Below, piece after piece: positions 1-63,502 of a stretch of 64,000 nucleotides of DNA. Source of the DNA: Styela clava (Eukaryota > Chordata > Ascidiacea > Stolidobranchia > Styelidae); contig NC_135259.1 in NCBI RefSeq assembly GCF_964204865.1, forward strand, positions 7,202,974 through 7,266,973. Reading direction: 5' to 3'. The position numbers were made by a program, and so were the translations under genes. Below the pieces are notes generated by a model. It was not told where the DNA came from and did no database searches. It was given only the letters and a program-made list of their open reading frames with translations. The first letter of the stretch is position 1, and every line of letters begins with the position of its first letter.

Positions 1-2007
1 CCTATAGGGCGATCCTGAAAATAAGATGTCGATTCCCATTTTCTTGCAATTCCGATCATTCTGGCATTCGCCGTTTCTCTAGCCCACGTGCCTCCATATC
101 TAAATGCCTGTCCTGAAAATGATTGTCAAGTTGGATTTTTTATAAGAATGAGCCCTCGCTCCGAAGTTGAATACACTTAAGCATCTCTCAACCAAATCGA
201 ATAGAAGTTTTTGCAAATTTTATTGGACCGAATACCCGATTTGTTACTGATAGAATTTAATTAATAAGATGTTCACAATATAAACAAAACTTACCAGGAA
301 CATATCCCGAATAGTTTGGCATCAGACCGGCTTTTGTGTGATAAATATGTTGTGCCGGTAATCGAAATTTGAATGCACTTTGCCGATATCTATCAAAATC
401 TTCATTGTCATACCAAACACCCTGCGTCCTGTCCGGGGTAAACCAACGGCACATATCTCTGCACCATGGCGTATTTTGCTTGAAGTTTGTAGTTATTAAC
501 TGAAAATACACAGAATTATTTCACTTACAGAACACCAAAAAGACTCATGTAAACATTCTAAATGTTCAGCGGAAGTAAAAAGCGAAAAATATCGACAAGA
601 CCAAGATGGATGAGCTCGTCTGGGGAGGGGTAGTAATTGTATCGAAAAAATACTGCATATGAAATATCTGCCTACTAGTTATAATTTTCCCAAATGATTT
701 GGAACTTTTCAGTGGCCTGCGAGGCTTAATTGAGACAATTTGCAAATAGGATAAACGGTGAAAGCAAGGTTAATTTTTTTCAGCATAAAATCGAATTTTT
801 CATTGCAAAGTAGGTTAAAGTTCACATGCGGGAGACTCCGCGAAATATTGTTCTTTGTGTGGTTTTGATAGAAGCCCAGGTCCTTTGTCGTTACAACGAC
901 GATGACCACGTTAATGCCTTAATTAACTGCACCTATCTCAGCCCCACAGCGTTCAAACCCAAAATAAAATCGACGGTTCATATAAATCAACAGAACGCAA
1001 ATGTAATGGGACAATTTATATTGAAACTGTCTAGTCATGATAATATGACATAAAGTCACCACACTTATCTAGACTAGATTTTGCGCAGTCACATTGTCAC
1101 TCAGTGGGGTTACCATATTTTTGTGACTTCAAATCGGGACGCCTCGGAAGACAACGACCCCTTAGCTGTGATTTTATAACTTCACATTTTCCGATTTTAC
1201 TACATAGGCCTACATTTAAAGCTCGGCTGCCTTCATTGACCATATTGTTATCAAAATTTCATGCGCATATCCTCTGTCCAAATATCGGGTTCAGTTCGAA
1301 AAATAGGAAGGAATTGACGTTAACAATACCGGTACAAATAATTCTAATTCAGACTAATTAGTATTGGTTTTACATGCGATACGTCTGCCATCAATGGGAA
1401 TCAGCGGGAAACGAACGCATTCACCTTCAGTAAGTAGGCTAGCGCTGCGCTACACAGAAACAACAGTAACGAAAACATGTTTGTGTATTATGCTGGAAAA
1501 GAGGGACCTTTGGCTGACTTATCGGGACGGCGGGACAAAACGCTGAAAAGCGGGACTGTCCCGCCTAAAGCGGGACGTATGGTAAGCCTATCACTCAGAG
1601 ATGCCAGAAAAGGGCCAAGTTTCAGTGGGATTATTGATAAAATGAACAATTTATCGATAGCTATTAGTAACAAAGTATGCATCTAATTCATGCATTGCTC
1701 TGATGTCTACGACACTGCCGGCACCTGTGAAACGCATGTGTTACTGCACGTTTGCATGTGTTCTGGGGGAAATTCTTTTGTTCACATGGTAAAGGTATAA
1801 TACAATTATTTTTATTTCAAAGACAAACTAACCCTGTGTTTGTGATCCACTCGTGGAGGATATTTGTACGTTGGTGGAGCAGTATGAGCACGTTGCTGTT
1901 GTTTCGATGATGTCACCAATCCGATGTCCGCTGCTGACTGGACACGTTGACTGATGTTAGGCAGTCTACGACTGAATGACTCTTGTGGCTTGAAATCATG
2001 ATCGGAA
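1..2007 (-). CDS. Partial gene for a putative ciliary/sperm microtubule inner protein (GYVPG motif)
   Basis: Three consecutive minus-strand exons can be joined: 2007-1833, 499-295 and 112-1, the last running off the window. Each junction has AG/GT signals (donors GTTAGT at 1832 and GTAAGT at 294; acceptors TTTTCAG before 499 and 112) and the phases agree. The product contains a Ser/Gln-rich stretch, then PWCRDMCRWFTPDRTQGVWY, and across the last junction a YSGYVPG motif followed by FRYGGTWARET. A GY.GYVPG.KF.YG-type motif is known from FAM166/CIMIP2-like and other proteins of the axonemal doublet lumen; I infer a related role but cannot name the orthologue. The exon at 2007 needs two bases from an upstream exon that I could not find, so the 5' end is missing as well. 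Coding status is fairly secure, function is not. Confidence 0.55.
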
Positions 2008-2830: not shown

Positions 2831-3369
2831 TAAAGCCCACAGAAAATTTTAAAATAAATAAGGTAATAGCCTTCTAGAGAGAAATACAATATTTGACCAC
2901 TGAAAATCCCAGAGCAATTGACTCTGTAGTTTATGTGAAAAGCGATTTTTTGAACGTTATTACAATAAGAAAAATGTCACTGTCAACAGATTGCGTTGCT
3001 TTCCTAAAGTTGGAACAAAACATTGATATTTCAAACATGTTCACTTAGCTTATTGCCACACGACATCAGTTGTTTTAAACGAGGTTTGCAGCATTTGTCC
3101 ATGTTGTTTCATGTTTAAGAGAAACACGTATCTTGTACAATTCACATATCTATGTTTTTATGTCCTTCATATAACTCGACAAGCATTGTTGAACAACAAT
3201 AGATGATTGGTTATTCGATATTCCATTGTTGGTTAATTGAACATATCAAAACATGTGGTAATAAACAATAGAAACGCGATATAACAGGCGTAACAATAAC
3301 ATAACGTAAATCTTTCGATTTTCTGGTAAATTTGAACGCTTCACACATAAACGGATGTAAACCTGAGGT

Positions 3370-3565
3370 GACCGTACATTTGAACCCACATACATTTGAA
3401 CCCATACATTTGCACCAGTATATCCGCGGGTTCAATCTATATGAGGGTTCTAAAGTCCATGAGTTAGGGTTAGTACGGGTTCAAATATCCGTAAAAAAAA
3501 TTGCATAGGTGCAATAGTATGCAGGTGCAATTGTCGTGGGTTCAAATTACGAATTCAAATGTAAT
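3370..3565 (+). repeat. GGGTTCAAAT-type dispersed repeat, copy 1
   Basis: Built from short degenerate units such as CATTTGAACCCA, ATCCGCGGGTTCAATC and GTATGCAGGTGCAATTGTC, with a central GAGTTAGGGTTAG. The same order of blocks recurs at 42515-42725 and, inverted, at 51745-51915; more degenerate versions lie at 58490-58700 and 59020-59110. No coding capacity is seen. The nature of the family is unknown to me. Confidence 0.7.
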
Positions 3566-6539
3566 GAAATCTAAATCTGAGCACGACAGATGAAAAGTAT
3601 GGCATAAACGTCTGTTTGTCTTTATTGCGTACGTTGATGGAGCGCTGGTGGCAAATGGGCATAATACTACTTTTTATCAAGTATGACACTGCATAATAAA
3701 TATATTTTTACACGCCACTAAAATTTTGAACAGTGTGTACATCCGCCTCGTTATATACATCAACTGTAAATTAGTCTAGATTAATTGAAAGTCCATGAAA
3801 CCATTGTACCAACTCACCATGTTTGTCGAGGATTAACGTGAGAGGCTTCAAGCATTTAAAATTGCCTATCGAGTGTTCAGGAGTATTTACAGAACACAAG
3901 AACCGTTTAAATATCTAATTTAGTCAAAGTGTGCCTACGCTTTTCAGCAATGTTTATAGAAACATTAGACCATTTTGCGATACAATATATGCAATCGATC
4001 AAGTCTGGCACTGAAACGAATCGTATTTTATTTTAATATGGCGGGGCTATTGTGATGAAAACAGAATAATTACGAACGAACCGTTACACCCGGCTATACC
4101 ACAGTATGACTAACTTTACGTACCTGTTTAAAATTATTAACTTATAGGATTCACTATGACGAAAAACAAAATATCACATTCAATTCCGACATATTTCGGA
4201 ATTAACCATTTTTGTGGGGTGTTATCTATCCAACCAATTCAACGGTATTCAACGAAATTTCATGAATCAACGTGGGCCAATCGAATTTGTTACATCATAG
4301 ATGGGGCGGTAAGCAGAGAATAACTGAAGTAATCAACTGAAAACAAGGTCCATTTAACTATTTCTAGAATAGCCTTTTTAATTTACATGATAGAAACAGT
4401 TGTTACTTACTTTGAGCCCCTTTTTTTGTAAACAGGACTGACCGTTACGTAAATACTCTGAGACGAATATGGATGTCCGGGAGTAGCATAATTCGGCATG
4501 TCTTTATTTAATTAGTATGTAGATCACCAAACAAATTTTATGCTACAATGCAAATGCAATGTTATGCTACAATGTCAAGTATACATAACACTATGATTAT
4601 ATGAATACTCTACTCTATGGAATACACATTTAATGAAAACAATTATCAGTTGACAGCAGAAGGATAACCGTAGATTTGCTCAGTTATTTTTGATAGAAAC
4701 GAGTCGTTTATGAAACCATCAATTTTATCTAAGAAGGGTCTCAATTCACTCAAAAATTTGAAAAATCCAAAAATAAACACTTTTTTGTGATATTTCATGA
4801 ACTTTACCATATATCATGCGTTATTAACCAATTTCAATTTTGTTATATTCGACGCTGCACCTGCCAGTCTTACGCTTAAATGCATCTTATCATACGAGAA
4901 TGTATACGTTAAATCTCACGGACTTAGTTAAAAAACAGTTTATTTTACATACATATATAATGTGAAAATCTGGTATCCCATTCTAGCTAGCTATACATAA
5001 ACTCGAAGTCTCGAAACAAACATTCTGGTTTGAATGAAACCTATAAACCGGTCCTCGACACCGACATTAATTGAAGTAAAAGCGGAGACAGATGTACCTA
5101 GGCTATCAATTTTCAAGGTGAGCCCTCTGATGAAAGTACGACAGAGCAAGTGAAATGAATACATTGTTATTACAAACAACGGCACACGATTGAAACAAGT
5201 GAATATCTATCGGTAATTTAAGCCATAGGACATGTGTAATGTATATGAAAACATCGAACATTTCATATACTCAAAACACACAGTTCGTATTTTAGGTTAC
5301 CTGTGGGCGGAACTTCGAAAATAGTAGTAGGTGAAATTTCTGGCGTTTTAAAAGCCTCTGGGTAGACTTTCTATCTAAAGCCCGCGCATGGCCGGTATTA
5401 AATGATCGTTTCTCTTATAAATCATGTAGCTTTTCATTCAGGTTGAAAATCTAATAAGATCCGTTAGAAACATCTTCGTTATATTGCCCAGACACTATCG
5501 CAAATATGCTTAAACCAAATACTTGAAGATGTCGGCAAATTACAGAAAAATCATCTAACGCCTTATATATGAGTGATCTCTGTATTCAATGTGATATTTT
5601 GGACAGCAAACGTGATCCTGTCTTTGTTTTCAAAATTAACCTAATAATTAGATATAGTCTGTTTGTACTATTCTGACACAATAATGTTCTTTATTTATTT
5701 AGATTTTTCTTGTATTTAAAAAGGATGTCACATTTCCTCATATATATTACAATTGTGACCAACATTTGCTGCCACTTTTCCATTAAAATCTATTAGATGG
5801 CTATTTACCTACATTCGTGATATGTATTTTCAAAATGATTGGAATACTTCAGCCCCATGCTTTACCTGAACGTCTTCGCTGCAATACGATAATATTGTAA
5901 TGTCAAGTCAGGCCACAATGCTTTCAGCTGTTTAAAATATTCTCTGCTACAAGCTATCAACTCTCAAGCCAGACTTGTGTATTGTTAATCCCAGATTCGT
6001 CCGAATACCAGTCGACAATATTTCCGAGTGGAATAATTATGCTGAGGTGTTTTGAAATGGACGGTGATGATGTGTAGCCTTTGTTACCCGGTCTGATGAC
6101 AAATTGGTGCTTCTTGTGTAGAACGATGCTTTTGTTATTTCGGTGTTTTATATTTATATTGAATGACAATGGCTCGATCTCATTTATCATGCCAAGTTCG
6201 ATTTGACCGCTAAAATAACGATATTCTTGTTCTTACAAGCATTCCCGTATTGCAAAGTGGCACCTTCCAAATTCTCTACAGTCTGTCTAATTGTCTATAA
6301 TATTCACGTTTTACTTGCGTTCGTTAAATTCAGATGTACCCAAGCTTTTCAGGCTGTACGAAATAAAAATGCCTTCAAAATTCCGCGCTCGTTACTTCAT
6401 AGATGCTGGTTGAATTAGGCAAAGCTTTGTGGTTTCAAAAACATCACATATATGCACATTACATTAAGCTGCCCGACAGTGAGTATACAGCCATCCTATT
6501 AATTCCACAAACTCGCCTACTTTAACTCATTAACGAAAA

Positions 6540-7672
6540 TCAGCATCAAGTGTAACATTCCATTATTACGACGTTTCGCGGTTTTCTGAATATTTCTTTG
6601 TCGTGTGGAAGGCGATTGCAGCAATTTTAGGATAAAGAGCTAGACTATTATAAATCAACCTGGTACAAAAGATCCCTAATAAAAACCATCAGGAAAAGAC
6701 AACTACAATTTTTTGGGCACATAAACAGAGCAGATGGGATAGAAAAGAAAATATTGTGTGAAAAGATTTGCGGTACCAAAAGTAGAGGAAGACAACGCAC
6801 AAAATACACCGACGGTCTGAATAATTACGCAACGAAGAAAGAATCCTCCAAAATGGAAAGCCATGATCGCCGATGCCTATAACAGACCTGGTACATGAGG
6901 AAGAAGACGTAAACACTACTATTTATCTGCTCAGCCGAGTTCAGCGAACATGAGTGATTTTTTTAGTTTTTAAAGGAAAATCAGGCAGGGTTGGGGAAGG
7001 AGAGTTAACCTTTTGTTTTTATTTTTGGCATACATGTTAACGATCACAAAATTGAGTTTCAATTATAAAAGCAGCAATTTTTTTCGTGAACTTGCGCCGT
7101 GATTTTTTTCTGATAATTTTGGGGCTGCGCAAACAAAATTTTGATAACCGCTGATGTAATTGACGTACAAATATATTACTCTTACTTCATCCTAAACTAG
7201 CCTTCAGTGATCTTAACTAGTCATAAGACAAGTATGAGACTCGGGATTATTCTGTAGTTGATAAATATATTGAAGATTTACATATGACGGCTAAACAAGA
7301 GAACATGGCAACGGTAACACCCTTAATTCATAGTTATAATCGAGTCCGCACGTGCCAATTCCACAATGTATACATTACAAATAGGCATTTCATGCTGCTT
7401 TGATGCTTCTTTGGATCAGGATGCATTTTCAGATAATCCATGTCGTGAAACAATTGTATAATATAATAATTACTACGACATGGGATATCGAATTATCCGT
7501 TTTGTACACGTACAATTATTATAAATGTACTTGGCTAATCACTTATATCAGCATAACGTAATATCTTTATGATACGGAAGAAATTCCCCCCATGTTGGTA
7601 TTTTTTTTTAAATGAACAATTGATTACATTCTAAATGATTTCATATTTGAATACAGTTTCAGTCTAAGTACA
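6540..7672 (+). repeat. Direct repeat S, left copy (partner at 12900-13588)
   Basis: Several blocks match 12900-13588 in the same orientation: CGATTGCAGCAATTT, ATATTGAAGATTTA, CATGCTGCTTTGAT followed by CTTCTTTGGATCAGGAT, and ACAATTGATTACATT. This copy is longer mainly because of a retrotransposon fragment at 6665-6910. Together with R2/R2' it frames the bHLH gene copies and marks the start of a tandemly duplicated unit. Confidence 0.75.
6665..6910 (+). pseudogene. 3' fragment of a non-LTR retrotransposon reverse transcriptase ORF
   Basis: Plus-strand translation gives LIKTIRKRQLQFFGHINRAD and, slightly further on, CGTKSRGRQRTKYTDGLNNY, ending in stops near 6880-6907. This is the typical C-terminal tail of non-LTR reverse transcriptases (RKRQLQFFGHI...GRGRQR). 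No polymerase core is present, so it is a 5'-truncated dead copy. It interrupts repeat S and is missing from the partner S' at 12900-13588, so it either inserted after the duplication or was lost from S'. Confidence 0.7.
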
Positions 7673-8275
7673 ATTTGTCTATATATTTCTTTATTTATTA
7701 CATTTCAAAAAATTCAAGAGCATATCTCCACACTGACACAAGTAATTTCATATCGTTTCCCTTGACTGAGCAAGTGTAATATATTTTAAAATTCTTTTCC
7801 AGCACACCCAATCTTACGCATGCACTTGATTGCTCACTTTAGATAAATTTCTACTTGAATTCTCCACCGATCAAAGTATTTAGGAGTGATTTCATCTCAA
7901 TTGTTTCTGAATTGTCCCTCTATTTGTAAATACATGATGGATTACGATATTCACCATGCATTCTATACCCATTTTCACTTGGTTTTCAAACGAATCACCA
8001 TAGCCCAAAATCTTCTATCCTGTAATGACATGGAGTTAGGTCGACTTTTCTAATCACAAAACTGAAATTCACAATGTATAAATGTATTCAAGTAGAATAG
8101 GAAAAGCAGTTATGATAATACAAAAATGGATAAAAACAAAATGCGAAGTAAAATAACAATTGTGACAGATTTTAATTAAGATTCGAGTTGTCAACATAAA
8201 AATAAATAAATCAGTTTGTTCAAAACAATATGGAACTCCAAGAAAATAGCAAACAATCATATTCCAGATATTCAT

Positions 8276-10189
8276 TCATCTGACCCATTCAGTCCACATC
8301 AACCGTGTTGTTAAATCTGTAAAAATTGTTATACATTATTAAATAAAATTAAATTACCATTTTTTCAGACTAAATTTTTATTGGCATTTAAAAATAACAC
8401 TAAGTTGAATCCTCGTAATTAATAATTTCACCAAGGTCATGATTGTACTTACCACTGATATTCCATTTTCTTGATTTATACTCTGCATTTCCGTTGATAC
8501 ATTCCTTCACAAACTGATTTGGATGTTTTTCTGATTCTAACATATCTCGTAGAAATGCTATGTATGCAATAGCAAGATGTAATGTGTCTATCTGAAAAGA
8601 AGTTTGATTATATTGAAAAACTTTTAAAAGATATTAGATAATTTGTAAAACATTACGACTGCACTTATTTTTTCAAATATTCTTTCTGAAAATAATTTTT
8701 TATAAACTTAGGAGGCTAAAAGGGAAACCTTTTATGATGAGAGTAAAACATTCACTAAAATTTGTGATCATCTTGTCAACTTTTTCTGTGAACAAATGTA
8801 TTCAGAAAGTAAAGTCTAGTAAGTTTGTTACACAAACTTTTTTCCTAATACTGTTATTTCAAACGTTTGTTAATAATATTGATTACCTTTGAAAGTCTTT
8901 TTTCATATGGGAATGTTGGAACACGAGACCTCAATTCTTCAAATCCTTCGTTGATATTGAACATTCTTTTTCGTTCCCGATTGTTTGCCGATTTTCGTTC
9001 TCCATTTAAACTAAGCAATGTTAAATTTGATTAATTTTAAATGCTCACTTCTAACTAAATTTATCTATATGGTAAACTCCATAATATATTCTCTCGGAAA
9101 CATTATGATCCAATTTATAAAGCATTTTTTAACCTCACACGACATTACTCGAAATATATAGTAATAATATTTATCGTGTTATATGAGGAAACCTTACGTC
9201 ACGGGAGAAGTTCTCTTTTCCTTTCTTCGCATTTGTCTTGAACTAATCCTTTGTTCCTTAAGTTTGAAATTGTCAACTTGTTGTTCTTTTACGTGGTGTT
9301 GATGGAGTTGATTATTTTTAGTCATTTCAAAGGGAGTGGCAACGTATGGATATACAGGTAATACAGGAAAGGCTTGAATTCTTTCAGTTGTAACAGGAAC
9401 AACATCGGCGTGGGAATAATACATCTGTCCGCACATTTCTCTAACTTGTTCATTTAATGTTTTATCAAGAGTTTGAAGATACGATTCATCTGATATTGAT
9501 GACAAGAACTCTTCACCAAGTTGGCAAATGATTTCCCCATTTGCATCTGCTTCTATAAATGTAAATTTTAATTTTAGACAATGAATATTTCGAAAAAATA
9601 TGATAAAGAAACAACGAGTCCCAATTATTTCATCCTGGAAACCTACCTTGAGAAGTTTCTATTATTTTGTCGTCTATCTTATCGTCAACTAAATAATTGC
9701 CATTTGTCGGCAACTCCAGCTGTAAAGAAATAACAGAAACATGTAGAAACAAGGTTTGTTTCTTGTTCTATTTTCTCATAAATTCAATCTAATTCTTTTT
9801 CAAAAAAATCTGTAAGTTAACAAGTTACATGCCTGGAATAAATCAGTACTGCTACCGAGCAACTGTTCATTAAATGATTGCAGAACAGTGAATTGTGAAG
9901 ACTGTGAATCTTGAATGTAATCATTCTCCACAAGTATTGCTTTTGGTCCACATCCATCGACAAAGACATCATCATTGTATATGAAAGATATTGCTTCAGA
10001 TTCTTGCTCTTGAGTAACTGATATTACTTCTGTGGAGTCAGATAAATATTCGGTTTTGTCATTCGATTGAGAAAGCAACACGGGAATCTGTTGATCATCT
10101 CCTTCAATGAAAATATTCTCAGGTGAATGTGAAGTTTGCAAACATGCAAATTCAAGTATTTTTGAATCTGGAATATTTTCTGAATTCAT
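8276..10189 (-). CDS. bHLH transcription factor, FERD3L/PTF1A type, copy A
   Basis: Six exons on the minus strand: 10189-9833, 9719-9647, 9552-9198, 9010-8887, 8591-8453, 8316-8276; 1089 nt, 362 residues plus stop, all phases consistent. The first four exons encode a long acidic N-terminus beginning [10 protein letters not shown]. The bHLH domain spans exons 4-5: basic region [15 protein letters not shown], loop [13 protein letters not shown] and helix 2 [18 protein letters not shown]. Family knowledge: this RERKRMFN...VPTFxYEKRLS pattern is closest to FERD3L and PTF1A, which bind E-boxes with E-proteins in neural or pancreatic progenitors. The protein ends [12 protein letters not shown]. Intron 1 has a GC donor (CAG|GCATGT) where copy B has GTATGT. 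The start ATG is conserved in copy B and lies about 64 bp after a TATA box. Symbol withheld because orthology is uncertain. Confidence 0.85.
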
Positions 10190-10252
10190 TATTAAATGTA
10201 ATCCACAATCGAATGAATAGATAACTGATGTCTTATTTCCAGTACAACCCCC

Positions 10253-10259
10253 TTATATA
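10253..10259 (-). promoter_or_regulatory. TATA box of bHLH copy A
   Basis: The minus strand reads GCAATATATAAGGGGG about 64 bases upstream of the ATG at 10189. The same element is conserved upstream of copy B (GCAATATATAAAGGGG at 15461-15476), supporting it as the core promoter of both copies. Confidence 0.6.
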
Positions 10260-10299
10260 TTGCAAACACACGACAATCCCAGATGACATTAAATATCAT

Positions 10300-10450
10300 C
10301 TGTTTCATGCATGTCGGGATAGTCGGGGAAATCTGTATTTGTTCCATGGATTAGTGTGTATCTGACAGTTTAGCACGTGTAATTGTTGTTGTGTAGTCAG
10401 TGTCCACGCGTAAGCACGGCGTGACACCAAAATTGATACCTCGATTCATT
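10300..10450 (-). promoter_or_regulatory. Conserved proximal promoter block of copy A with CACGTG E-box
   Basis: The block contains GACAGTTTAGCACGTGTAAT, a CGGGGAAATCTGTATTTG stretch and GCGTGACACCAAAATTGATA. It is nearly unchanged in inverted orientation at 15285-15430 before copy B, and a diverged version recurs at 11580-11730 in this same arm. The palindromic E-box CACGTG and strong conservation against a more variable background suggest regulatory function. The binding factor is unknown. Confidence 0.5.
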
Positions 10451-11579
10451 TATAATACTATGCATACATTCGAATCATTATAAATGTTGAATATTATAAT
10501 CTTGCATTAGTAAATTTTACAATCAGATATATAATCTCAACAATGTACGCGACTACAATCTTCTTAGTAAAAAGGAGTTCCAAAACTTTCCATGTCTCAA
10601 TGTAAAGATATGAATGGTATTAATCATCACAATGTGAAGAAATTTTAGCGCTTCAATTAAAGTTAATTTTATTACTTAAAATTTGTTCCAGCACAAACAT
10701 GGGTTAAATGACCCCGTAACGACATATTTGATAAACAGAATTAAAATAAAAACATCCTGATTTAACAGAAAATAATACAAGTCAAAAACGACATTAATTT
10801 TGCCCACAGGTAAATATTCAGATCCGGAAAGGCAGATAGAATCGATTTTTAACAGGACAATATCTATATTTTGCGTATCATAATTTGTCCAGGTATAATT
10901 TGACACCAATACTTCTTTGTTTGATTTCCTGCTTTAAGTTGTTTGTTTGAAAATGTGATTTTTGTTATAATTGTTCATATTTTACATAAGAATTTGACAA
11001 ATCATAACGTGGCATCATAAGAAAGGCATGTAACAAAGCAGCGAAGTTATTGGCGTGGTATATTCGGTTTGCACTTATTTTATAATACTTATTTTTCTAT
11101 ACAGCAGCTGGCATAGTTCTACTCGGAATAATGTTATTTATCCTAATCTTATTTTACATACTGGATATAAGAATATATATTAACAAGGAACACGATTGTT
11201 AGAAATATTTTTTTGCTTCAACTGAGTATTTGTAAAGGTATTGCAAAAATATGAAGTGGATGAAAGGCCATTACTTTCTCACTATTTTTTCATCATCTTC
11301 AGGTTAACAAGATGTTTTTGTATAATGTTTGTTTCATGTAAAAAATGAAGAACAACGACAACTAAATAGGGAAACACAATAAGCAAATATTTATTTTACG
11401 TTCCCTGGAAGTCACAATAAATTAAGCATCTCATTATAGGGGAACAAATAGAGCAGTTTTTGAATTTTGGAATAATATCTGAATCCAGGACTATACGTGG
11501 TCTACAATTAAATGTGAATGATTACACCTATCCGTTGATATGCTACAAAACATACAGACGAAGATATCAAATATCATAA

Positions 11580-11730
11580 AATAAGATCCGTACCATGCAT
11601 GCAGGGATAGTTGGGGAAATTTGTTCTGTGGATTAGTACATACATGACAGTTTAGCACGTGCGATGATGGTTGTGTCGGTAACATTGATAATCTGTACTC
11701 TAGCTGCATGACACCAGGATTGATAGTTTT
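11580..11730 (-). repeat. Second, diverged copy of the promoter block in the left arm
   Basis: CATGCAGGGATAGTTGGGGA, GACAGTTTAGCACGTGCGAT and TGACACCAGGATTGATA follow each other in the same order and orientation as in the proximal block at 10300-10450. No exon 1 follows it. The inverted counterpart in the right arm lies at 14010-14150. It may be a left-over promoter from an earlier duplication, or a duplicated enhancer. Confidence 0.6.
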
Positions 11731-12599
11731 GATAGCTTCAATAATTTGTTATAATCATCTAATACTTAACTTTTGTTGGAATGATTTTTCAAATTAAATC
11801 ATTGTTTGATGAAATATTCCAGAAACAAGTACCAAATATAAAACTAAGTAAGTTTCAATTTTTGCGTTTCAGGTAAAACTTCATTGGGTTTAGTGTATTT
11901 TTCCTCCTCAATATATTCGACAGACAAGGTGATAAGTTTTCACTTCAAAATTTACTTATAGTTGACTGTAACTCGTAACCCATTGTAGCTCTGTTTGTGC
12001 ATTGCAGGAATTAACAGAACTGGAAATAGTAACGGTTTAGTCATACTGACTATAAAAACATTTCTTTATTTATAAAAACGAAAATCAAATAAAGAAATAT
12101 TGATGTTACGTTTCCTGACTTTTACAACACATTATATTTGTTTACTTAGTACATATGTTTTATCGATTTTATTCTTCATTTCCGCATACTGTACTTTATT
12201 TAAATCAAATTTTGATTTTTTCGTTATTTTTGCTTTAATATTCAAATTACGGTTATAACAACGATGTTATGGCTGATATATACCACATTTTGACATCTTA
12301 AAAGATAATGAGGTCAAAGGTGACCTAAAAACACTATACTCGTGTTATTCTTGAGAAAACATACCTTCTGTGCAAAGTGTCCCAGATTACTGAAACTTTT
12401 GGTTACAATCAATCATACGCAAACAAAAATTTGCGTCTAATGAAGTTTTTTTTTCATTTTTGTCAAAATATAAAAATATATGGGTTTTGTTTTTGGGAGA
12501 TCAACCTGAAAAGGTATAACTTTATTGAATGAATTTTCTTTCGAGTACTGAAGCACTCTTACACAATCAATCGGTTCACAATGTGTCGTACTTTATTCA

Positions 12600-12865
12600 C
12601 AATTTCTACCTGACATTGCTGGCCAAATGCTTATTTGTAAATCTACAAATTACGCAGGGGATTTTAGATAGATATAGCAGCGGTTTAGCTTTCCATCGCC
12701 GGATTAAAGATATATATATATATTTGTTCACCACCCTTTTTGTCGCTGTTTAATCATAAAACACTAATTCGGGGTAAAGGATTTTGCACTTGCCATATTT
12801 TGATACCAGGCACTCACTCTATACCACTTACACTCAAAGATCTCAAGCTAATTTGATTCATATTA
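12600..12865 (+). repeat. Direct repeat R2, left copy (partner at 17957-18252)
   Basis: Shared blocks with 17957-18252 in the same orientation: CTACAAATTACGCAG, GATATAGCAGCGG, CGCCGGATTAAA, TTCACCACCC, GTCGCTGT.TAATCATAAAA and CAAGCTAATTTGATTCAT. It ends where the second copy of repeat S begins, as expected at the junction of two tandem units. Confidence 0.75.
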
Positions 12866-12899
12866 ATTGTACTCAAGATAATACACGAGGTACTTATTA

Positions 12900-13588
12900 T
12901 AATGTAACAAAGTGACTTTATATGTCCACGATCTTTGGTGGCCTCCACGAATTTTCTTTGTCCCACGGAACACGATTGCAGCAATTTCGGGACAGAGAGC
13001 TAAACTATTAAATATACGATTGATGTTTTGTATCATATTTTGACTATTAATATGTCTAACTCCACAAAATGATTTACCAAGCGGAGCTGTTGAGGTCTTA
13101 TTTGTCCAAAACATGCAAATTATTAGCAATACTAAACTAGACGCCAGGCATCTATGAGACGTGGGAGACGTGGGATTGTCCTGTGTTGGTGCATATATTG
13201 AAGATTTATATCCGATGGCCCAAATAACAGAACAGTGCATCCTGTAATTCGGAATCGCAGTTGGAAAACACACCTTGTGCGTGCCGATTCCACAATAGAT
13301 ACATTCTGAATAGCGTTTCATGCTGCTTTGATACTTCTTTGGATCAGGATACTTTTTCAGCTAATCCATGTTGTGAACAGTTGCTTAATCTAACTACGGC
13401 ATGGGATGTTTAATTATCCGTTTTGTACACGTGCAATATAAATGTATAAGGCTAATCACTTATATCAGCATGATGTTATATCTTTATGATATGGAAAAAT
13501 CTCCCCCCTTGTTGATATTTTTAAAAAGAAACAATTGATTACATTGATAATGATTCAATATCTCAATACATTTTCAGTCTAAGTACAA
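12900..13588 (+). repeat. Direct repeat S', right copy (partner at 6540-7672)
   Basis: Same-orientation counterpart of 6540-7672 (for example CATGCTGCTTTGAT followed by CTTCTTTGGATCAGGAT near 13320), without the retrotransposon fragment. It starts about 35 bases after R2 and ends at 13588 (CAGTCTAAGTACA), exactly where the inverted right arm begins. Confidence 0.75.
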
Positions 13589-14009
13589 ATATTAAATAAA
13601 AAATAACGAACAAAATCGAAACGAAAAAATTTCATTCAAATGAAATACTGTATGCGGAAATAAAGAATGAAATCGATTTTGACGAGATAAAACACAGAAA
13701 TAATTTATTGTAAAATTCGTAACATCAATATCTCTTTATTTGATTTCCGTCTTTATAAACAAAGAAATATTTATAGTAAGGGTGACTGAACCTTTACGAT
13801 TTCCAGTTTTATTAATTCCTGCAATGCACAAACAGAATTACATTGTTATGAGTTACAACCAACTTCATGTCAATCTTAAAGTGGAAAAGTATCCCCTTGT
13901 TTGTCGAATATATTGAGAAGAAAAATTCACTAAACCCAATATAGTTTTCCTGAAATTTAAAATTGTTTTAACAAAAGCTAAGTATTAGATAATTATAACA
14001 AATTATTGA

Positions 14010-14150
14010 AGGTATCAATCCTGGTGTCATGCAGCTAGAGCACAAGTGTGCAATGTTACCGACCCGACCATATTCACACGTGGTGAACTGTCTTATATAC
14101 TAATCCATAGAACAAATACAGATTTCCCCAACTATCCCCGAATGCAAGGA
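14010..14150 (+). repeat. Second, diverged copy of the promoter block in the right arm
   Basis: Inverted counterpart of 11580-11730: TATCAATCCTGGTGTCATGC, then CACACGTGGTGAACTGTC and ACAGATTTCCCCAACTATCC. It resembles the proximal block of copy B at 15285-15430 in order and orientation. The E-box core here is ACACGTGG, shifted relative to the other copies. No exon follows. Confidence 0.55.
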
Positions 14151-15284
14151 ACGAATAATACTTGTTACTCTATATTTCGTCTGTGTGTTTAATAATGTGA
14201 GTGCAATCATTCATTTAATTGTGGATCACGTATAGTGATGGATTCGGATTTTATTCGAAATTCAAAAACTACTAGATTTGTTCCAAAGATGCTTTATATG
14301 TTGTGACTTTCAGTAATATCAATATTTGCATGTTATGTTTCATTATTTAGGCTTCGTTATTCTTCATATTTTACATAAAACAAACATTAAACAAAAATAT
14401 CTTGTTGACCCAATGACGGTATTAAAATAGTGAGGAATTAATGGCCTTTCATCCTCTTTACATTTTTTGCAATATCTGTACAAATTCTCATTTGGGGCAA
14501 AAAAACAACTATAACAATCATGTTTTCTTTGGATATACATACTTATATCAAGTAATATAAATAATAAGATTAAGGTAAATAATATTATTTCGAGCAGAAC
14601 TACGCCAGCTGCTGTATAGACAAGTATAGAAAAATTAGTATCAAATTACAAGTACCACGCCGATAACTTCGAAGCTTTTGTAAATGCCTTTCTTATGTTG
14701 CCATGTTATGAATTGTAAAATTCCTCTGTAAAATATGAACAATAATAACGAAAATCACATTTTTAAACATACAACCTAAAGCAGGAAATCAAACAAAGTA
14801 GTATTGATGTCAAATTATACTTGGACAAATTATGATTCGCAAAATATAGATTTTGTCGTTTTTAAAAATCGATTATATATATCTGTCTTTCCGGATTTAA
14901 CTGTTTACCTGCGAGCAAGTGTTTTCGTCTTTGATTTGTATTATTTTAGTTAAATCAGAATATTTTTATTTCAATGCTGTTTATCAAATATGTCGTCACG
15001 TGGTCATTTGACTAATGTTTGTGCGGGAACAAATTGTAGGTATTGCTAAAATTCCTGCATATTTTTATGATGACTATCATTCATGTCTTTACATTAAGAC
15101 ATAGAAAGTTTAAAACTCCTTTTTTCTAAGAAGATTGTAGTCGCGTACATTGTGAAGATTATGTATGTATCTGATTGTAAAAATTACTAATGCAAGATTA
15201 TGATTTTCAACGTTTTTTATGCCAACGAGTAATTATGGGTCTATAATGAATCAAATGTATGCATAGTATTATAAATGAATCGAG

Positions 15285-15430
15285 GTATCAATTTTGGTGT
15301 CACGCCGTGCGTACGCGTGGACACTGACTACACAACAACAATTACACGTGCTAAACTGTCAGATACACACTAATCCATGGAACAAATACAGATTTCCCTG
15401 ACTATCCCGACATGCATGAAACGGATGATA
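15285..15430 (+). promoter_or_regulatory. Conserved proximal promoter block of copy B with CACGTG E-box
   Basis: Reads TATCAATTTTGGTGTCACGC, then ATTACACGTGCTAAACTGTC and CAGATTTCCCTGACTATCCC; near-identical to the block before copy A in the opposite orientation. It lies 35-180 bp upstream of the TATA box at 15465. Confidence 0.5.
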
Positions 15431-15464
15431 TTTAATGTCATCTGGGACTGTCGTGTGTTTGCAA

Positions 15465-15473
15465 TATATAAAG
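15465..15473 (+). promoter_or_regulatory. TATA box of bHLH copy B
   Basis: TATATAAAG inside GCAATATATAAAGGGG, about 61-69 bases upstream of the ATG at 15534 and conserved with copy A. Confidence 0.6.
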
Positions 15474-15533
15474 GGGTTTACTGGAAATAAGACATCAGTT
15501 ACCTATTCATTCAATTACGGATTACATTTAATA

Positions 15534-17487
15534 ATGAATTCTGAAAATATTCCAGATTCACAAATACTTGAATTTGCATGTTTGCAAACCTTACATTCAC
15601 CTGAGAATATTTTCATTGGGGAAGATGATCAACAGATTTCTGTGTTGCCAGAACATTTTTCTGACTACACAGAAGTAATATCAGTCACTCAAGAGCAAGA
15701 ATCTGAGGCAATATCTTTCGTATACAATGATGATGTCTTTGTCGATGGATGTGGACCAAAAGCAATACACGTGGAGAATGAATACATCAAAGATTCAGAC
15801 TCTTCACAATTGACGGTTTTGCAATCATTGAACAAACAGTTACTCTGTAGCAGTAATGAATCATTTCAGGTATGTTCTGATTTATGTTAAGTTACAGCTA
15901 TTTTTGAAAAAAGATATTAGATTGAATTTATTAGAAAATAGAACATTCTAATGATCTTGTTTATACATGTTCATGTTATTTCATTGCAGCTGGGGTTGCC
16001 TACAACTGAAGAGTATTTAGTTGATAACAAGGAAGATGATGGGAGAATCGAAGCTTCTCGCGGTAGGCCTTCATAATGAATAACTGACAATCGTTGTTGT
16101 TTGGGTTTTAATCTTGTCCTGTAAAAAAATATGGTTATTGAAAATACTTCGTCCTTATCATTTTTCCTATATTTAAAAAAAATTTAACTAAATTTGAAAT
16201 TTACTTTTCTAGAAGCAGATGCAAATGGGGAAATAATTTACCAACTTGGTGAGGAATTCTTGTCATCAATATCAGATGAATCGTATCTTCAAACACTTGA
16301 TAAAACATTAAATGAACAAGTTAGAGAAATGTGCGGACAGATACATTATCCTCATACCGATCTTGTCCCTGTTACAACTGAAAGAATTCAACCTTTTCCT
16401 GTATTACCTGCATTTCCATACGTTGCTACTCCCTTTCAAATGAGTAAGAATAGTCAACACTATCAACACCGCGTGAAAGAACATCATGTTGACAATTTTA
16501 AACCTAAGGAACGAAAGATTAATTCAAGACAAATGCGAAGAAAGGAAAAGAGAACTTCTCCCTTGACGTAAGATTTTCTTATAGACGATAAATATTTTTA
16601 CTATATATTTCGAGTAATGTCATGTGAGGGTAAAAAACGCTTTATAAATAAGATTATGATGCTTACGATAGAATACATTATGGAGTTTACCATATAGATA
16701 CCTCATGTTATAATAACGCAATTGAAATTATTCAAATTGAACATTGCTTAGTTTAAATGGAGAAACACAAGAAAGAAAATCGGCAAACAATCGAGAACGA
16801 AAAAGAATGTTCAATATCAACGAAGGATTTGATGAATTGAGGTCTCGTGTTCCAACATTCCCATACGAGAAAAGACTATCAAAGGTAACAATTAATATTA
16901 ATAAATCATTTTAATAACATTAGTAAACAAATTTTTCTTGTAACTGATTTACTAAATTTCATTTTCTGAATCATTCGTTCACAGAAACAAATTGCATTTT
17001 GCAAGTTTGCATATCTATCATTGCATGGATATTTAGTAAATATTACCTTTCATTCATAGAGCTTCTCTTTATACTCTCATAGCAATTTTCGCTGTTCTAA
17101 AATATTTCCAGAAAGGGTAGCAAAAAAAGGTCCGGTAGTAATATTATGAAAATGTAGTTTATGGAAATCTTTTTCCAGATTGACTCATTGCGTCTTGCTA
17201 TTGCATACATTGCATTCCTAAGAGATATGTTAGAATCAGAAAAACATCCAAATCAGTTTGTGAAGGAATGTATCAACGGAAATCCGGAATATAAATCAAG
17301 AAAATGGAACATCAGTGGTAAGTAGAAACATAAAATAGTTGATAAAAAGAAATCGACTATGTTTTTTTTTTTCAACTACCAGAAAAATTGTGAGGCATTG
17401 TAATTATTTGATATTGTCGTGTAAAAATTTATTATACTTTTCACAGATTTAACAACGCGATTAATGTGGACTGAATGGGTCAGATGA
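15534..17487 (+). CDS. bHLH transcription factor, FERD3L/PTF1A type, copy B
   Basis: Six exons: 15534-15869, 15990-16062, 16213-16567, 16752-16884, 17179-17317, 17447-17487; 1077 nt, 358 residues plus stop, all with GT-AG introns and matching phases. The protein parallels copy A exon by exon: acidic N-terminus starting [10 protein letters not shown], basic region [23 protein letters not shown] loop, helix 2 [18 protein letters not shown] and terminal [12 protein letters not shown]. It differs by deletions in exon 1, three extra residues (ETQ) at the start of exon 4 and scattered substitutions, so both copies look maintained as genes. Role by family knowledge: E-box-binding developmental regulator dimerising with an E-protein. 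It is divergent to copy A, with about 5.3 kb between start codons. The ATG was chosen because it is conserved and follows a TATA box at a usual distance. Confidence 0.85.
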
Positions 17488-17797
17488 ATGAATAGCTGCA
17501 AGATGATTGCTTTCTATTTTCTCGAAGTTCCATATTGTGTTAAACAAGACTGTGCATTTTCATGTTTTCAGTGATAACTGGAAGCAAACCTGTATTGAAA
17601 TATCACAATTTTACAATTTACTTTTTATTTATTTTTGTCAAATTTTTTTTATCAGCATGACTTCTTTAACCCGTCTACTTCAATACATATAGTCATTATG
17701 AACAATATTTCAGTTTTGTGATTATAGAGAAGGCGACCTAACTCTATTTCATTGCAGGATAGACGATTTTTTATCATAGGTGATTCATTTGAAAATG

Positions 17798-17945
17798 GAC
17801 TAATTAAAAATGGGTACATCCGTAGTGTGTGTACCAGGTTAGGGTTAGGCTGTAATTTTAATCCGATTTCCCTTATTTTAGTTGATAGAACTTTATCCAA
17901 TTCCGCTTGAATTCGAGTACTAATATACGCGTACATCGGCAATCG
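17798..17945 (-). repeat. Partial short inverted-repeat element (GTGTACC/TTAGGGTTAGG family)
   Basis: TGTGTACCAGGTTAGGGTTA followed by TTTCCCTTATTTTAGTTGATAGAACT is the reverse of a block in copies at 36126-36330 and 43680-43905 and resembles the MITE at 21494-21683. It sits exactly between the end of the right arm and R2', where the left unit has unrelated sequence. Confidence 0.5.
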
Positions 17946-17956
17946 GGTCTACCTGG

Positions 17957-18252
17957 GATTGTTGGCCGAATGCTTATCAGTTAATCTACAAATTACGCAG
18001 AGGTTTTGTGATGGATATAGCAGCGGATTAGTTTTCCAGCGCCGGATTAAAACAATATATATATATTTCTCTTCACCACCCTCCTTGTCGCTGTCTAATC
18101 ATAAAAACATATGCATATTTATGTGAAATTAAATTATTAATTTAGGGTGAAGAATTGGGCGATTGCTATTATTTGATATATACAAACTGGCGCTCACCCT
18201 ATATTCCGCTTACATACAAATATGGCAAGCTAATTTGATTCATTAACTCAAC
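17957..18252 (+). repeat. Direct repeat R2', right copy (partner at 12600-12865)
   Basis: Same-orientation match to 12600-12865 (CTACAAATTACGCAG, GATATAGCAGCGG, CAAGCTAATTTGATTCATTA). It marks the right boundary of the duplicated region. Confidence 0.75.
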
Positions 18253-41000: not shown

Positions 41001-44000
41001 TGAACTCAAATTAAAAGGTTGATTTTGTTTAAATTTGTTCTCTATTGGAATAATTAACGGTTAACATAAACTCTAGCCACATAACTAACGACTCTGTTTC
41101 TTGGAAAATACTCTTTTAACACCATTGTGTAATTAAAATTTTGATCAAAACAAGATCAAAAACTCAATTGAAGTTATATTTATCATTGTTTTTGTATTAC
41201 TCTACTATCAGCAGCACTCTGAAACGGTAATGTTTGCGTAATAATAATAAGCATGATATATTGTTTCCAGGTGACCAAGCTTATTTTATAGGCTTATTTG
41301 ATTATTTTCAATTTAATATCCTGCGCACAAAAGCACACATACACATTTATATGTGAAAATAAATTTCAGCTTTACACATACACATACATTAGATAAGTAT
41401 TTCACAATAAAAACAAGTTTGAGTCCGTCGTACTCATCAGGAGAAGTGCAGTTCAATAATGCAATAAAATTATAATTTTAGACCATCTTAGTCAAGTAGC
41501 TTGCATAATTATAGTTTTATATCATGCAAGGAAGTGGGACCTAATATTTCCTCAACTAATAAATTATATTCATATCAAGCACATTAAGCTTAAGTAGTAT
41601 TTATGTAACAGAGATCTCCATAATAAATAGATTCAAAATTGCTTACGGTATATACGATAGTAAATTCCTCTAGGATTTATTTAGAATTTTGTCTAAAATT
41701 TTTCATTTTCATAAGCATTTGATATGTGATGATCAGACTAAAGATGATCGACTGACCCTGTAGAGTGTAGGCTATAAAATAAATAAAAGGAAAAATGCAA
41801 TCTCCAGCACAACTATTGTATTTATGTATGGTAATTAAACATGAAAGCAGAGACAGGTGTATATCCTGGCATCCTGCATTACCGGTACTAAATTCAACTT
41901 ACCCGAAATTACAATGATTTTTGCCATTTCTCCGTTCAACATAAACCGATGTAAAATATGTCAAAAATTTCCAACTTGTTTTTATTTCGGAGACTATTCT
42001 TTATAGACTTATAGTAATGTATTCGTTTTTGGTTATCATTGATATGTCTACACCCCTGCTCTATTTTATACACATGTTCAAAAACTTTCAATTTTTTAAT
42101 GGCCAAGAGAATTCATTAATACCATATATAGTCTGTCGGACTCTACAGCTGTACTAAATGAAGTAAAAAAACTTTAATAAACACTAATTTGGTACATTAA
42201 AAATGATTAATAATATTGAGAAGTGAATTCATAACAAAATTGAAAATCACGATGGTACTTTACGAACACCTTGTGTAGCGAGTTTGCATTTATAAGTAAT
42301 AATTATGTCTCTATTAATTAACTATATAGGCCTATAACTTTAAGCATATTGACTATATATGACGTTTTACAATTTTTTGTTTTGTTTCCGCAGTAATTAC
42401 TGGATCACATTTAAAATTGAAGGTAATATTATGATGTTCTTCAGCAGTCAGCATATCAGCGCAATAGTATCCAATTAGCAAATGCCACATTTCAAAGTAA
42501 TATTGAGAAAATACCATTTTTGTGGTGACCGTACATTTGAACCCACGTACATTTGAACCCATGCGTATATCCGCGGGTTCAATCTATATGCGGTTGCTAA
42601 AACCCATGGGTTAGGGTGAGTATGGGTTCCAATATCCGTAAAACAAAAAAATTTCCATATGTGCAATAGTATGCAGGTGCAATTGTCATGGGTTCAAATG
42701 TTCAAGGGTTCAAATGTAATGGAACCCATTTTTGTAATTGTTTGATTTTAACATCACATAACATAAACATAAGAACATAAATTAATTAAAACAAGTGTTT
42801 GATAAGCTTCGAAGCTCAGACCGTAAGATGGTCCATGGTTCATAATGATGGAACATCAGAAAAATCCATTTAGAAAAAATGTGACATAATAAGTTACTGT
42901 TTTTTTTTGTGGGGACATGAATAAATTTCTCAAAACTATTTAAAATTGTTGGCAAGATCACTTAACAATCATAATATTTCATTTCAAATAATGCTAATTA
43001 CTTTGTGATCGGTCAAGTATGAGTCATTGATGTTGTAACTCACCAATGTGTGGCTCATCATTACATCATGCTTGAGAAGAAATATCTAATATTATTTGTT
43101 TAAGAAGCCTCCTAATATTGACAATTGTGTAACTCTGACTTCACTTCCTGATTTATATACATACTTGGATTAGTCATTCACATTCGTAGCTATTTTGTAT
43201 ACCCTTGATCTTTTCTGAGTACATACTAATGCTTTGTTTGCCTTTTTTGTGTTTGATCATATTATATTTGCTGGTTTCCATCATTGAATTGTCATTAAAT
43301 TCACACATTCCTAAGATTTTTAAATTTAGTAGTTTCCTCCTGGGTTAAGTTATCTTAAATTTTTTTTTTTATAAAATGATTGCTTAATAACATGATGGTC
43401 TGATTTAATACACGAGAGAAAAATAAAATTACAAACAGAACTTATATTTCTATCTTCATCTAATTTCATGCTGAAACTGTCTTGCTAGGATTTGAAACAT
43501 GTTCAATCCAATTATTAAATTATAGGTTAGCCTTATGTTTATTTCTATCTTAATATAAATTCATAGTCACTGTCATAATTTATGTAACATTAAGTGTGAT
43601 ATCGTTACTAATAACTAGAATTTTGTGTTGGTCAGTGAATTCACAAATATATCCCGATATGCGTCTGCAGCCTGTAAAATGGGCGCTCCAGAAGTGTATG
43701 TACCAATATAATGGAGGTGACTAATTTTGTTCGCCTACATTACGTCAAGTTGTATAAAGGGACTGAAACCTATGGACAGGGCAAATATTCACTTGGCTAA
43801 CACGGACAGTCCCCGAACTCGTAATAGAACTAAAATATGGAAAATCGGAATAAAATTATGGCCTAACCCTAACCTGGTACAGTGGTACATATACTACGGG
43901 ACTGAGAGTACCGTAAAATGAATGCAATACCGTAAAGTCATTATTGTTTATTTTGTAAAGCTGTGGGTATGTCACTGTGTGTTTAAGCTTTGCAATATTT

Positions 44001-50000: not shown

Positions 50001-53000
50001 CGAGGATATCATATGGTATCCAAATGTATTTCTGTAACGTTTCATCTGACCAAAGTCAGACTTTTTAGGATGACTAGATTATTGTAAACAAAGAAATATA
50101 TTTGTGTTAGTGTCCGCTGTCAAGCACGATTCTTGAATTATATAGTTTTGATTGAAAATGTTTTTCAAGGCCATTCATTGGTGTTGTTTTACACAGCAGA
50201 CATGGTAATAATAGTAATTTTTAATGAAAGGTCTTTTTGCTTGACATTTTTAACCTATTCAATTTCAATTGTAATTTATGCAATAAGTGTATTTCTTTTG
50301 ACTGTGCTCTCAAATTTTATTAGTTAAAGCAAGCCTTTAATTAATACCCCAACTTGCCTTTGTATTATTGGTGTGTATTTTGTTGGAAGTGGAATAAATG
50401 CTCGAGAGTTTATCCAAATTCAAGATAGGATCCAGTTTCACAAAACTCAAAAGTAAATTTGATACAGTGATACCTCGGTAGTCGAACGACTTGATACTCG
50501 AACAATTCGGTAGTCGACCAAAAAATTATAGTCAAAAATGGTGCGGTACATAAACAGAAATTCTTGTGCTTGAACACCCAAGCGTGCCGTCGAGTGCGAG
50601 GATTTATATTATTGAAAGCCCTGTTTCATCCTTCCCAATATTTTCAAAGTTCTAGATCGAGACCTCGAACTGCTCATGAACAAGAACAATATGTTGAAGA
50701 TCAAAAACTCGCTATTTTGTTGCAAAACGAAGAATTTATACGGGAATTGAAACGTAACGATGAATTTTTAAAAGCTTTGGAGAAAGGTAAATAAACTATT
50801 TAGGAAAATTTTTAGGCTATTTTAAAGAGAGACTGACTTTTCTAAACTCCATATTCAGTTTTGAGTAGACAATTTTGACAAAAAAATTTCGTTATTTAGT
50901 ATGGAAATCATCTCTGGAAAAAATTTCAAATTAGAATATCATTTATTGTGAATTTTTGAAAAGATGTCGCTTTTTAGCTATGCTCAATTTATGACTTTTC
51001 TTGTTACCTGATGGTTGAATTGAAATAAACCATTTCAGGATTCATGTTAAAAATTTTGAATCTGGATAATTATCGCCAGTTTCTAAATTTGTAATCTTAT
51101 AACAATACAGATATAACAATATAGAAACAATATAGATTGTATAAAATTATGATTTGTTGATATTTCTCAGATCGACCTAATAATATATCATCGATACCTA
51201 CAACTCCAATCGCGGAAATAGCAGACAGGGTCAGTATATTAAATACTTTTTTCAGAAAGTTTCTGATAGGACAATATGTAGTTCGGAATAGGATTTTTTT
51301 ATGTTTATCTTGCAATTGCAGTGGATGATAGGATTGGCTTGATCATCTGACGAACCATGGATTCAGATTCTGGGGTAGTCCCGAGAGCCATCTAGTCTTC
51401 AGTCCATCTATGAGCACTTATGTTAGCGTTTATATGGTGCTAAGATTTAATCCTTTCTTTGACCTTATGATAAATGTATATCTGCCTTCACGGCCGAGCA
51501 CTGCCCTCGAAATACACTGAAATTACCACTTCGTAGCGAATTTTTTTTTTGTGATTTGAATGTTTATGTCGGAGCAGCTAGATGCCATATTTCCAGACGT
51601 GTGAACGAACAGCTTTCCAACGAGGTACGCTCATAAGCAATATGCTCCCGCTGTATACCAGCTTAGATAAATTTTGTCCATGCAGTATTTCCCCAATTTT
51701 TCCTTTTTTCAATATTAACGTCCCTGTTCTGGCATTAATCAATCTATCGGTTCCATTACATTTGAACCCACGACAATTGCACCTGCATACTATTTATTGC
51801 ACCTCTTGAAATTTTTTTTGAACTGATATTTGAACAAATACTAACCCTAACCCATGGGTTTTAGCACCCGCATATAGATTGAACCCGTGGATATACGCAT
51901 GGGTTCAAATGTTGGGTCACTCAATCTATCACTTCAGATGTATGAATTCTTGTACTGGAGGAATCCGTGAAAAACCCTGCACCAGCAATCCATTCTTACA
52001 TAATCAACCTGTGGCACAGAATTTGAATCTATGAATCACATTGGTCGTGTAATCAATGGTGCGATGTCATGCCTAATATACATCTTAGCATATATCTCTT
52101 GTTATTTACACATCTAAAAAATACTTGGTATTTATCAGAATAAATTTTCCATTTCTAGGATATTGTACCATTACCAGATCCTGATGCGAAATATACGCAC
52201 GGATCACAAAATCCTTCTGTTCTAAAAAGAGTGGGAATGGATGATCCAGGTCAGTGTCCTTGTGTTTTTCTATTTATTCTTTTGAACAAGGTTTCTTTAA
52301 ATGAACCTTTAAACTCTTTCTTAGTTAAATGGAAATCAAATTTTTCAATTCTGGACCCTCTATTTGGCATTGAACAATACTTTTTTTTCTATGTTTTTCT
52401 GTGGTGAACTTCAAGTAGAAAACTTGATTTTTTTCTGTGTCTGTATTCCTCATACATGTCTCATATGTCCCAGTTTATGATTTTATCATTCTATTTTACA
52501 CAGAAAAAGAAGATGAAAAAATGTTCAAAGAAAACCTTAAACATATGGGAAAATGTAAGTATTTTTTATATACTGTACGTAGAAGTTGTCTTTTTTAATT
52601 TTTATTTGTAGAGTCACACTTTATTGGTAAGGTGTGTCACAATGTTCTGGTTTCCTGAAGTACGCGCCCTCAATTACTTCTAGTGGGTGTAGCATAACGA
52701 TTTTTGCATATAATATTCCTAACTCCCACCTGAGTACGTCACCCAAAAATTACAATCGCATCATAGAGCTTGCTAAAGTATAGCTACGATCGTCCGAAAT
52801 GGCATCTGTGCAGACTCTAATGAACTCACTAACACCAGCGATCTCTATCTTATCGGTATCGCTACGATGAGGAAACAAGTGGAATAGATTGCTCGATTCC
52901 GGATAATTGTCTGCGCTTTTAGACGACCATTTGACCTTTTAGACGGAATGACATATTTCATATTTTGTTATATATGCTTTTCAGCTGCCAGAAAAAAATT

Positions 53001-60629: not shown

Positions 60630-63502
<2,873 letters not shown>

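Follow-up and report, generated by a model that had tools for sequence, protein, structure and literature searches.

Why does the genome of the tunicate Styela clava hold two divergent genes for similar basic helix-loop-helix (bHLH) proteins? We examined this in a stretch of 64,000 nucleotides (hereafter the window; C13:7202974-7266973 of a 376.6 Mb assembly in 379 contigs). Two genes, A and B, lie head-to-head here in the inverted arms of a palindrome. Very probably, a Fer3-like bHLH gene of a tunicate gave rise to them by a lineage-specific inverted duplication that is real and well preserved, with both copies apparently under constraint. Duplications of this kind are known.

Intact genes in inverted arms with direct flanks

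We built gene models for both arms. Exon phases are equal in the two, as expected from the initial annotation, which had described two intact six-exon genes with preserved phases. It had also placed 5.3 kb between the start codons, and the interval is 10190-15533. The proteins are identical at 298 of 355 aligned residues. All acceptors are AG and all donors GT, with the sole exception of gene A intron 1, which is GC-AG (GT-AG in B). The Pfam HLH domain (PF00010) was matched at 69 and 70.1 bits in the two proteins, against a curated cut-off of 20.7. This domain, at residues 267-318 of A and 263-314 of B, is the sole Pfam domain found in either.

BLAST of the window on itself returned inverted blocks at 7983-12242 and 17795-13588, in keeping with the palindrome first proposed. 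With sensitive settings the arms formed a single alignment. Hence, the inverted pair stood but the arms are slightly longer than the 4.2 kb suggested, and a 1.3 kb spacer divides them. The arms match at 3352 of 4051 aligned bases, a divergence of 17%. Flanking segments X and Y each occur twice at the locus. The piece of X at 6568-6655 recurs in direct orientation at 12928-13015, and the piece at 7189-7673 does so at 13129-13588. Y recurs as Y'. A DNA search that skips very common words found Y at two places only in the genome. The order of the locus is X-Arm-Y-X'-inverted Arm-Y'; the flanks are in direct order around inverted arms. This order indicates tandem duplication, then inversion of one arm. 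Hence, one Fer3-like gene would have been duplicated in tandem with its promoter and flanks, as a unit X-Arm-Y. Later inversion of one arm would have left two divergent genes.

Could the palindrome instead be an assembly artefact that put two haplotypes, or a fold-back, together in inverted orientation? One ascidian has a reported heterozygosity of 3.63%. For palindromes in a Botryllus assembly, uncollapsed haplotypes were weighed as a cause, and the authors judged the palindromes real (both PMC12448946). However, the 17% divergence between arms is far above that heterozygosity, and synonymous divergence (dS) between A and B is 0.27. Furthermore, X and Y repeat in direct rather than inverted order, Y was found at two places, and divergence is patterned by function. 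An artefact fits these data poorly, and we consider it extremely improbable. A transposon or large gene family as the source was not favoured either, because only two coding copies and two places for Y were found.

Other repeats occur nearby. To the left, C13:7189621-7203514 (which includes window positions 1-541) contains more local direct duplications. One of these spans ~2.8 kb, with 79% identity and 10.3 kb spacing. Pieces near window positions 1-541 recur ~4.6-4.9 kb leftward, partly across the open frame at 260-520 on the minus strand. Separately, a dispersed repeat of ~150-200 bases is present at 3364-3566, 42521-42721 and 51758-51917. Its copies are 83-88% identical, occur in both orientations and, in two of the three, contain tandem units of 14-16 bases. 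Rfam gave no matches in the window at gathering scores.

Selection on the coding sequences

If only one copy were maintained, the other should have drifted. A neutral copy should raise the pairwise ratio of nonsynonymous to synonymous divergence (dN/dS) to about 0.5, and a value near 0.05 would require constraint on both copies. In the bHLH and tail (97 codons) we counted 4 nonsynonymous differences at 232 sites and 16 synonymous differences at 59 sites (Fisher P = 3e-9). Before the bHLH (258 codons) the counts were 58 at 615 sites and 34 at 159 sites (P = 7e-5). The corresponding NG86 dN/dS values are 0.05 and 0.40, with 0.28 for the whole protein; other methods gave 0.29-0.42 for the whole. 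Exon 2 is the most changed, with 22 base differences in 24 codons (dN 0.30, dS 0.87). Both coding indels, of 21 nt and 9 nt in exons 1 and 4, are in frame. In non-coding parts of the arms, 13 of 50 indel events are in frame and 37 are not multiples of three.

Both proteins are apparently under constraint. This agrees with the earlier proposal that selection kept both copies, given the ratio of 0.05 and the in-frame indels. The same proposal had changes spread over the protein; the in-frame indels stood, but an even spread did not, with 4 nonsynonymous changes in 97 codons and 58 in 258. Taken together, open frames, splice sites and purifying selection appear to be those of an intact gene pair, with one GC donor in A.

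Some observations weigh against a real duplicate with two constrained copies. Alone, dN/dS of 0.40 in the N-terminal part and 0.28-0.42 overall is compatible with one relaxed copy. The GC donor of gene A may splice less well, and in helix 2 of A histidine replaces arginine (LHLAI vs LRLAI). Because very common words were skipped, the uniqueness of Y is unproven by the DNA search. The family placement described below is tentative, as it uses residue counts against human FERD3L and PTF1A. Finally, promoter identity could reflect a conversion tract limited to the promoter and ending near the start codon, which we think unlikely.

The donor, the helix 2 change, the N-terminal ratio and the much changed exon 2 would also suit a different history. 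One copy could have become a pseudogene lately, or be a duplicate that has no function yet still appears intact, if loss of function began only recently. We regard this as very unlikely. The ratio of 0.05 extends across all 97 codons of the bHLH and tail, and the promoters of A and B are nearly identical. In addition, we simulated neutral substitution in one copy, with 3000 runs per divergence level. The copy remained stop-free in 0.9%, 0.5% and 0.03% of runs at 0.10, 0.13 and 0.16 changes per site, respectively.

Proximal promoters and older upstream modules

Shared control from the 5.3 kb between the genes had been raised as a possibility. We compared non-coding sequence between arms. In the 246 bp before the ATG, 237 of 246 positions (96%) are identical, compared with 2158 of 2737 (79%) at other non-coding arm positions (P = 3e-15). 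The excess persists with an upstream-only baseline (1365 of 1644; P = 8e-11). By 100-base windows, the upstream arm is 75-93% identical but 15288-15487 reaches 96-99%. Both proximal promoters contain a TATATAA box. Hence, each gene keeps its own promoter. We consider gene conversion an unlikely source of this identity because exon 1, directly downstream, has a dS of 0.24, and its initial 38 aligned codons have 0.20. Selection is favoured over recent conversion for this reason, and we infer that selection is the cause.

Each arm also carries a distal module, ~1.3 kb upstream of the proximal promoter. These modules share ~64% identity with the proximal promoter plus the initial ~40 coding bases, and are relics of an older duplication. 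Module A has lost its start codon, and neither module codes any longer. Distal cores of ~70 bases match the proximal cores at 52 of 64 and 56 of 68 positions (81-82%), compared with 44-72% for the five remaining pieces; boundaries of the pieces were set after viewing the alignment. The motifs CACGTG, TAATCC, TTTCCC and TATCCC are common to all four modules. TAATCC is a type of site that homeodomains of the Otx type recognise.

These similarities between distal and proximal cores, and the four common motifs, point to a co-regulated divergent unit. In such a unit, the distal modules would control both genes and so hold the pair together. Conversely, each gene has its own promoter. Moreover, distal modules are 79-85% identical between arms in 100-base windows (54 of 62 in the core), and this does not clearly exceed the 75-93% seen in the remaining upstream arm. 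A co-regulated unit is possible but doubtful. Sole shared control is not needed, because each gene holds its own highly conserved promoter. What stands of the first suggestion is that the relic modules could serve both genes.

A related and fairly unlikely idea is that the relic cores have been kept as enhancers. The locus would then be a regulatory block of four modules, in which two promoters are live and two are older relics that lack a gene. Relics of one duplication would become shared control elements for the pair created by the next. If true, the block would offer, in compact form, a natural test of dead gene starts turning into enhancers. Relatives of the gene concerned mark neurons of dopaminergic type.

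Table 1. Genes, control regions and repeated segments of the locus (window positions)
Feature	Position	Strand	Remark
Gene A, Fer3-like/Ptf1a-related bHLH, 362 aa	8276..10189	-	Six-exon model
Gene A exons	10189-9833, 9719-9647, 9552-9198, 9010-8887, 8591-8453, 8316-8276	-	
Gene B, Fer3-like/Ptf1a-related bHLH, 358 aa	15534..17487	+	Six-exon model
Gene B exons	15534-15869, 15990-16062, 16213-16567, 16752-16884, 17179-17317, 17447-17487	+	All GT-AG
Gene A proximal promoter	10190..10436	-	TATA-like box and conserved CACGTG / TAATCC / TTTCCC core
Gene B proximal promoter	15288..15533	+	
Distal relic module A	11457..11725	-	Older duplicate of promoter and first ~40 nt coding
Distal relic module B	13994..14279	+	From the ATG at 14238 the frame stays open for 22 codons
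X, left flank of duplicated unit	6568..7673	+	Sensitive self-alignment
Left palindrome arm	7966..12242	.	Self-alignment
Inter-arm spacer	12243..13587	.	Contains Y and X'; self-alignment
Y, right flank of duplicated unit	12605..12861	+	Direct repeat of 17948-18243
X', second left-flank copy	12928..13588	+	Stops where inverted arm starts
Right palindrome arm, inverted	13588..17816	.	Self-alignment
Y', second right-flank copy	17948..18243	+	Self-alignment and genome search

Family placement and copy number

The initial annotation assigned the genes to a FERD3L/PTF1A type. Our comparison supports this and refines it to the FERD3L side. Of 58 bHLH residues, A and B share 38-39 with FERD3L, 34-35 with PTF1A, 29-30 with TWIST1 and 27-28 with TAL1, using human FERD3L and PTF1A. 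The pair probably falls on the FERD3L/Fer3 (Ptf1a-related) side, nearer FERD3L than PTF1A, as judged from these sequences. Vertebrate FERD3L (NATO3), represented by the human sequence, has the closest bHLH of the compared set, and MFNxNE and VPTFxYEKRLS are common to it and A/B. Unlike FERD3L, A and B have a long N-terminal part over three further exons, and a C-tail. This tail may be similar to insect Fer2 and unlike human FERD3L.

Vertebrate PTF1A resembles A and B as a group A bHLH protein. The motifs SLSW and WTPE, which we take to be the RBPJ-binding tail motifs of PTF1A, are absent from the A and B proteins. C-terminal tryptophan motifs of PTF1A bind RBPJ. Residue W298 is required (PMC6054649). 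A separate bHLH gene, at C2:20373238, has a tail with YSLSW and IWTPE, PTF1A-like motifs. This gene, A and B have in common a phase 0 intron after the loop LSK. Loss of Ptf1a in tunicates has been proposed (PMC12338642). The C2 gene would speak against that proposal if it proved to be a genuine tunicate Ptf1a.

Known tunicate genes of the PTF1A/FERD3L group include Ciona Ptf1a-r (Ptfb) and Styela 'fer3-like' (XP_039261045.1), and A and B resemble these as bHLH genes of that group. Coronet cells are the exclusive site of Ptf1a expression in Ciona, and expression of Ptf1a-r nearly overlaps it (PMC7693978). The same paper lists one Ptf1a-r gene for Ciona, compared with two head-to-head copies here. 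The initial annotation knew of no described divergent duplicates of this family. Among the matches listed in open-licence literature, we found no earlier report of the A/B pair. However, the kind of duplication is not new, because Ciona has three Twist-like genes. These are also a lineage-specific duplication of an ascidian group A bHLH gene, and the portion of PMC7693978 available describes no palindrome for them.

How many copies does the genome contain? A protein search of the assembly gave 23 matches: 9 are exons of the A/B pair and 14 lie elsewhere. The best match outside the pair scored 43.5 bits, and is presumably a Hand-like gene. By this search, A and B are the only two copies found. 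HLH matches in the assembly numbered 38, of which 26 were examined; the bHLH was readable in 18, and 8 (from a set of 14 loci) showed no motif with the pattern used. Since 18 of the 38 could be read, it is by the protein search that we judge a further Fer3-like gene to be absent. Elsewhere in the genome, two bHLH-PAS genes on different contigs (C13:20662024 and C6:11363225) have identical bHLH domains; we take both to be ARNT-like.

The source organism was also checked. The genome has one GH6 match, on C9, at 35.4 bits against a cut-off of 27. Cellulose synthase motifs DAD, TED and QRSRW, read by eye, precede it on the same strand. We take a cellulose synthase-GH6 fusion to be a mark of tunicates, and by this mark the genome is a tunicate's; a single fused transcript is putative. 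COX1 had no match in the assembly. Among 24 contigs for which lengths were read, 15 are chromosome-sized (18.7-32.7 Mb). Within the window, ten other open frames (of 190 of at least 60 aa) matched no Pfam family above cut-off, with two weak sub-threshold matches. The open frame at 61294-61761 on the minus strand had no Pfam match for this exon by itself; its end looks like the opening residues of a RING finger of MDM2 type.

What might two copies do? Both full proteins are most likely E-box-binding bHLH factors, presumably with an E-protein partner. Because both copies keep the same compact TATA promoter, the neural cells that express A and those that express B are probably the same or overlap. 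Retention may reflect dosage or a partial division of labour. The duplication event as such is ordinary. Duplicated cell-fate regulators that keep proteins and promoters are, however, useful for asking why copies persist. Neurons are few in tunicate larvae, and electroporation allows promoters to be assayed in these animals. Hence, the A/B pair could show whether two Fer3-like copies split or share one cell type.

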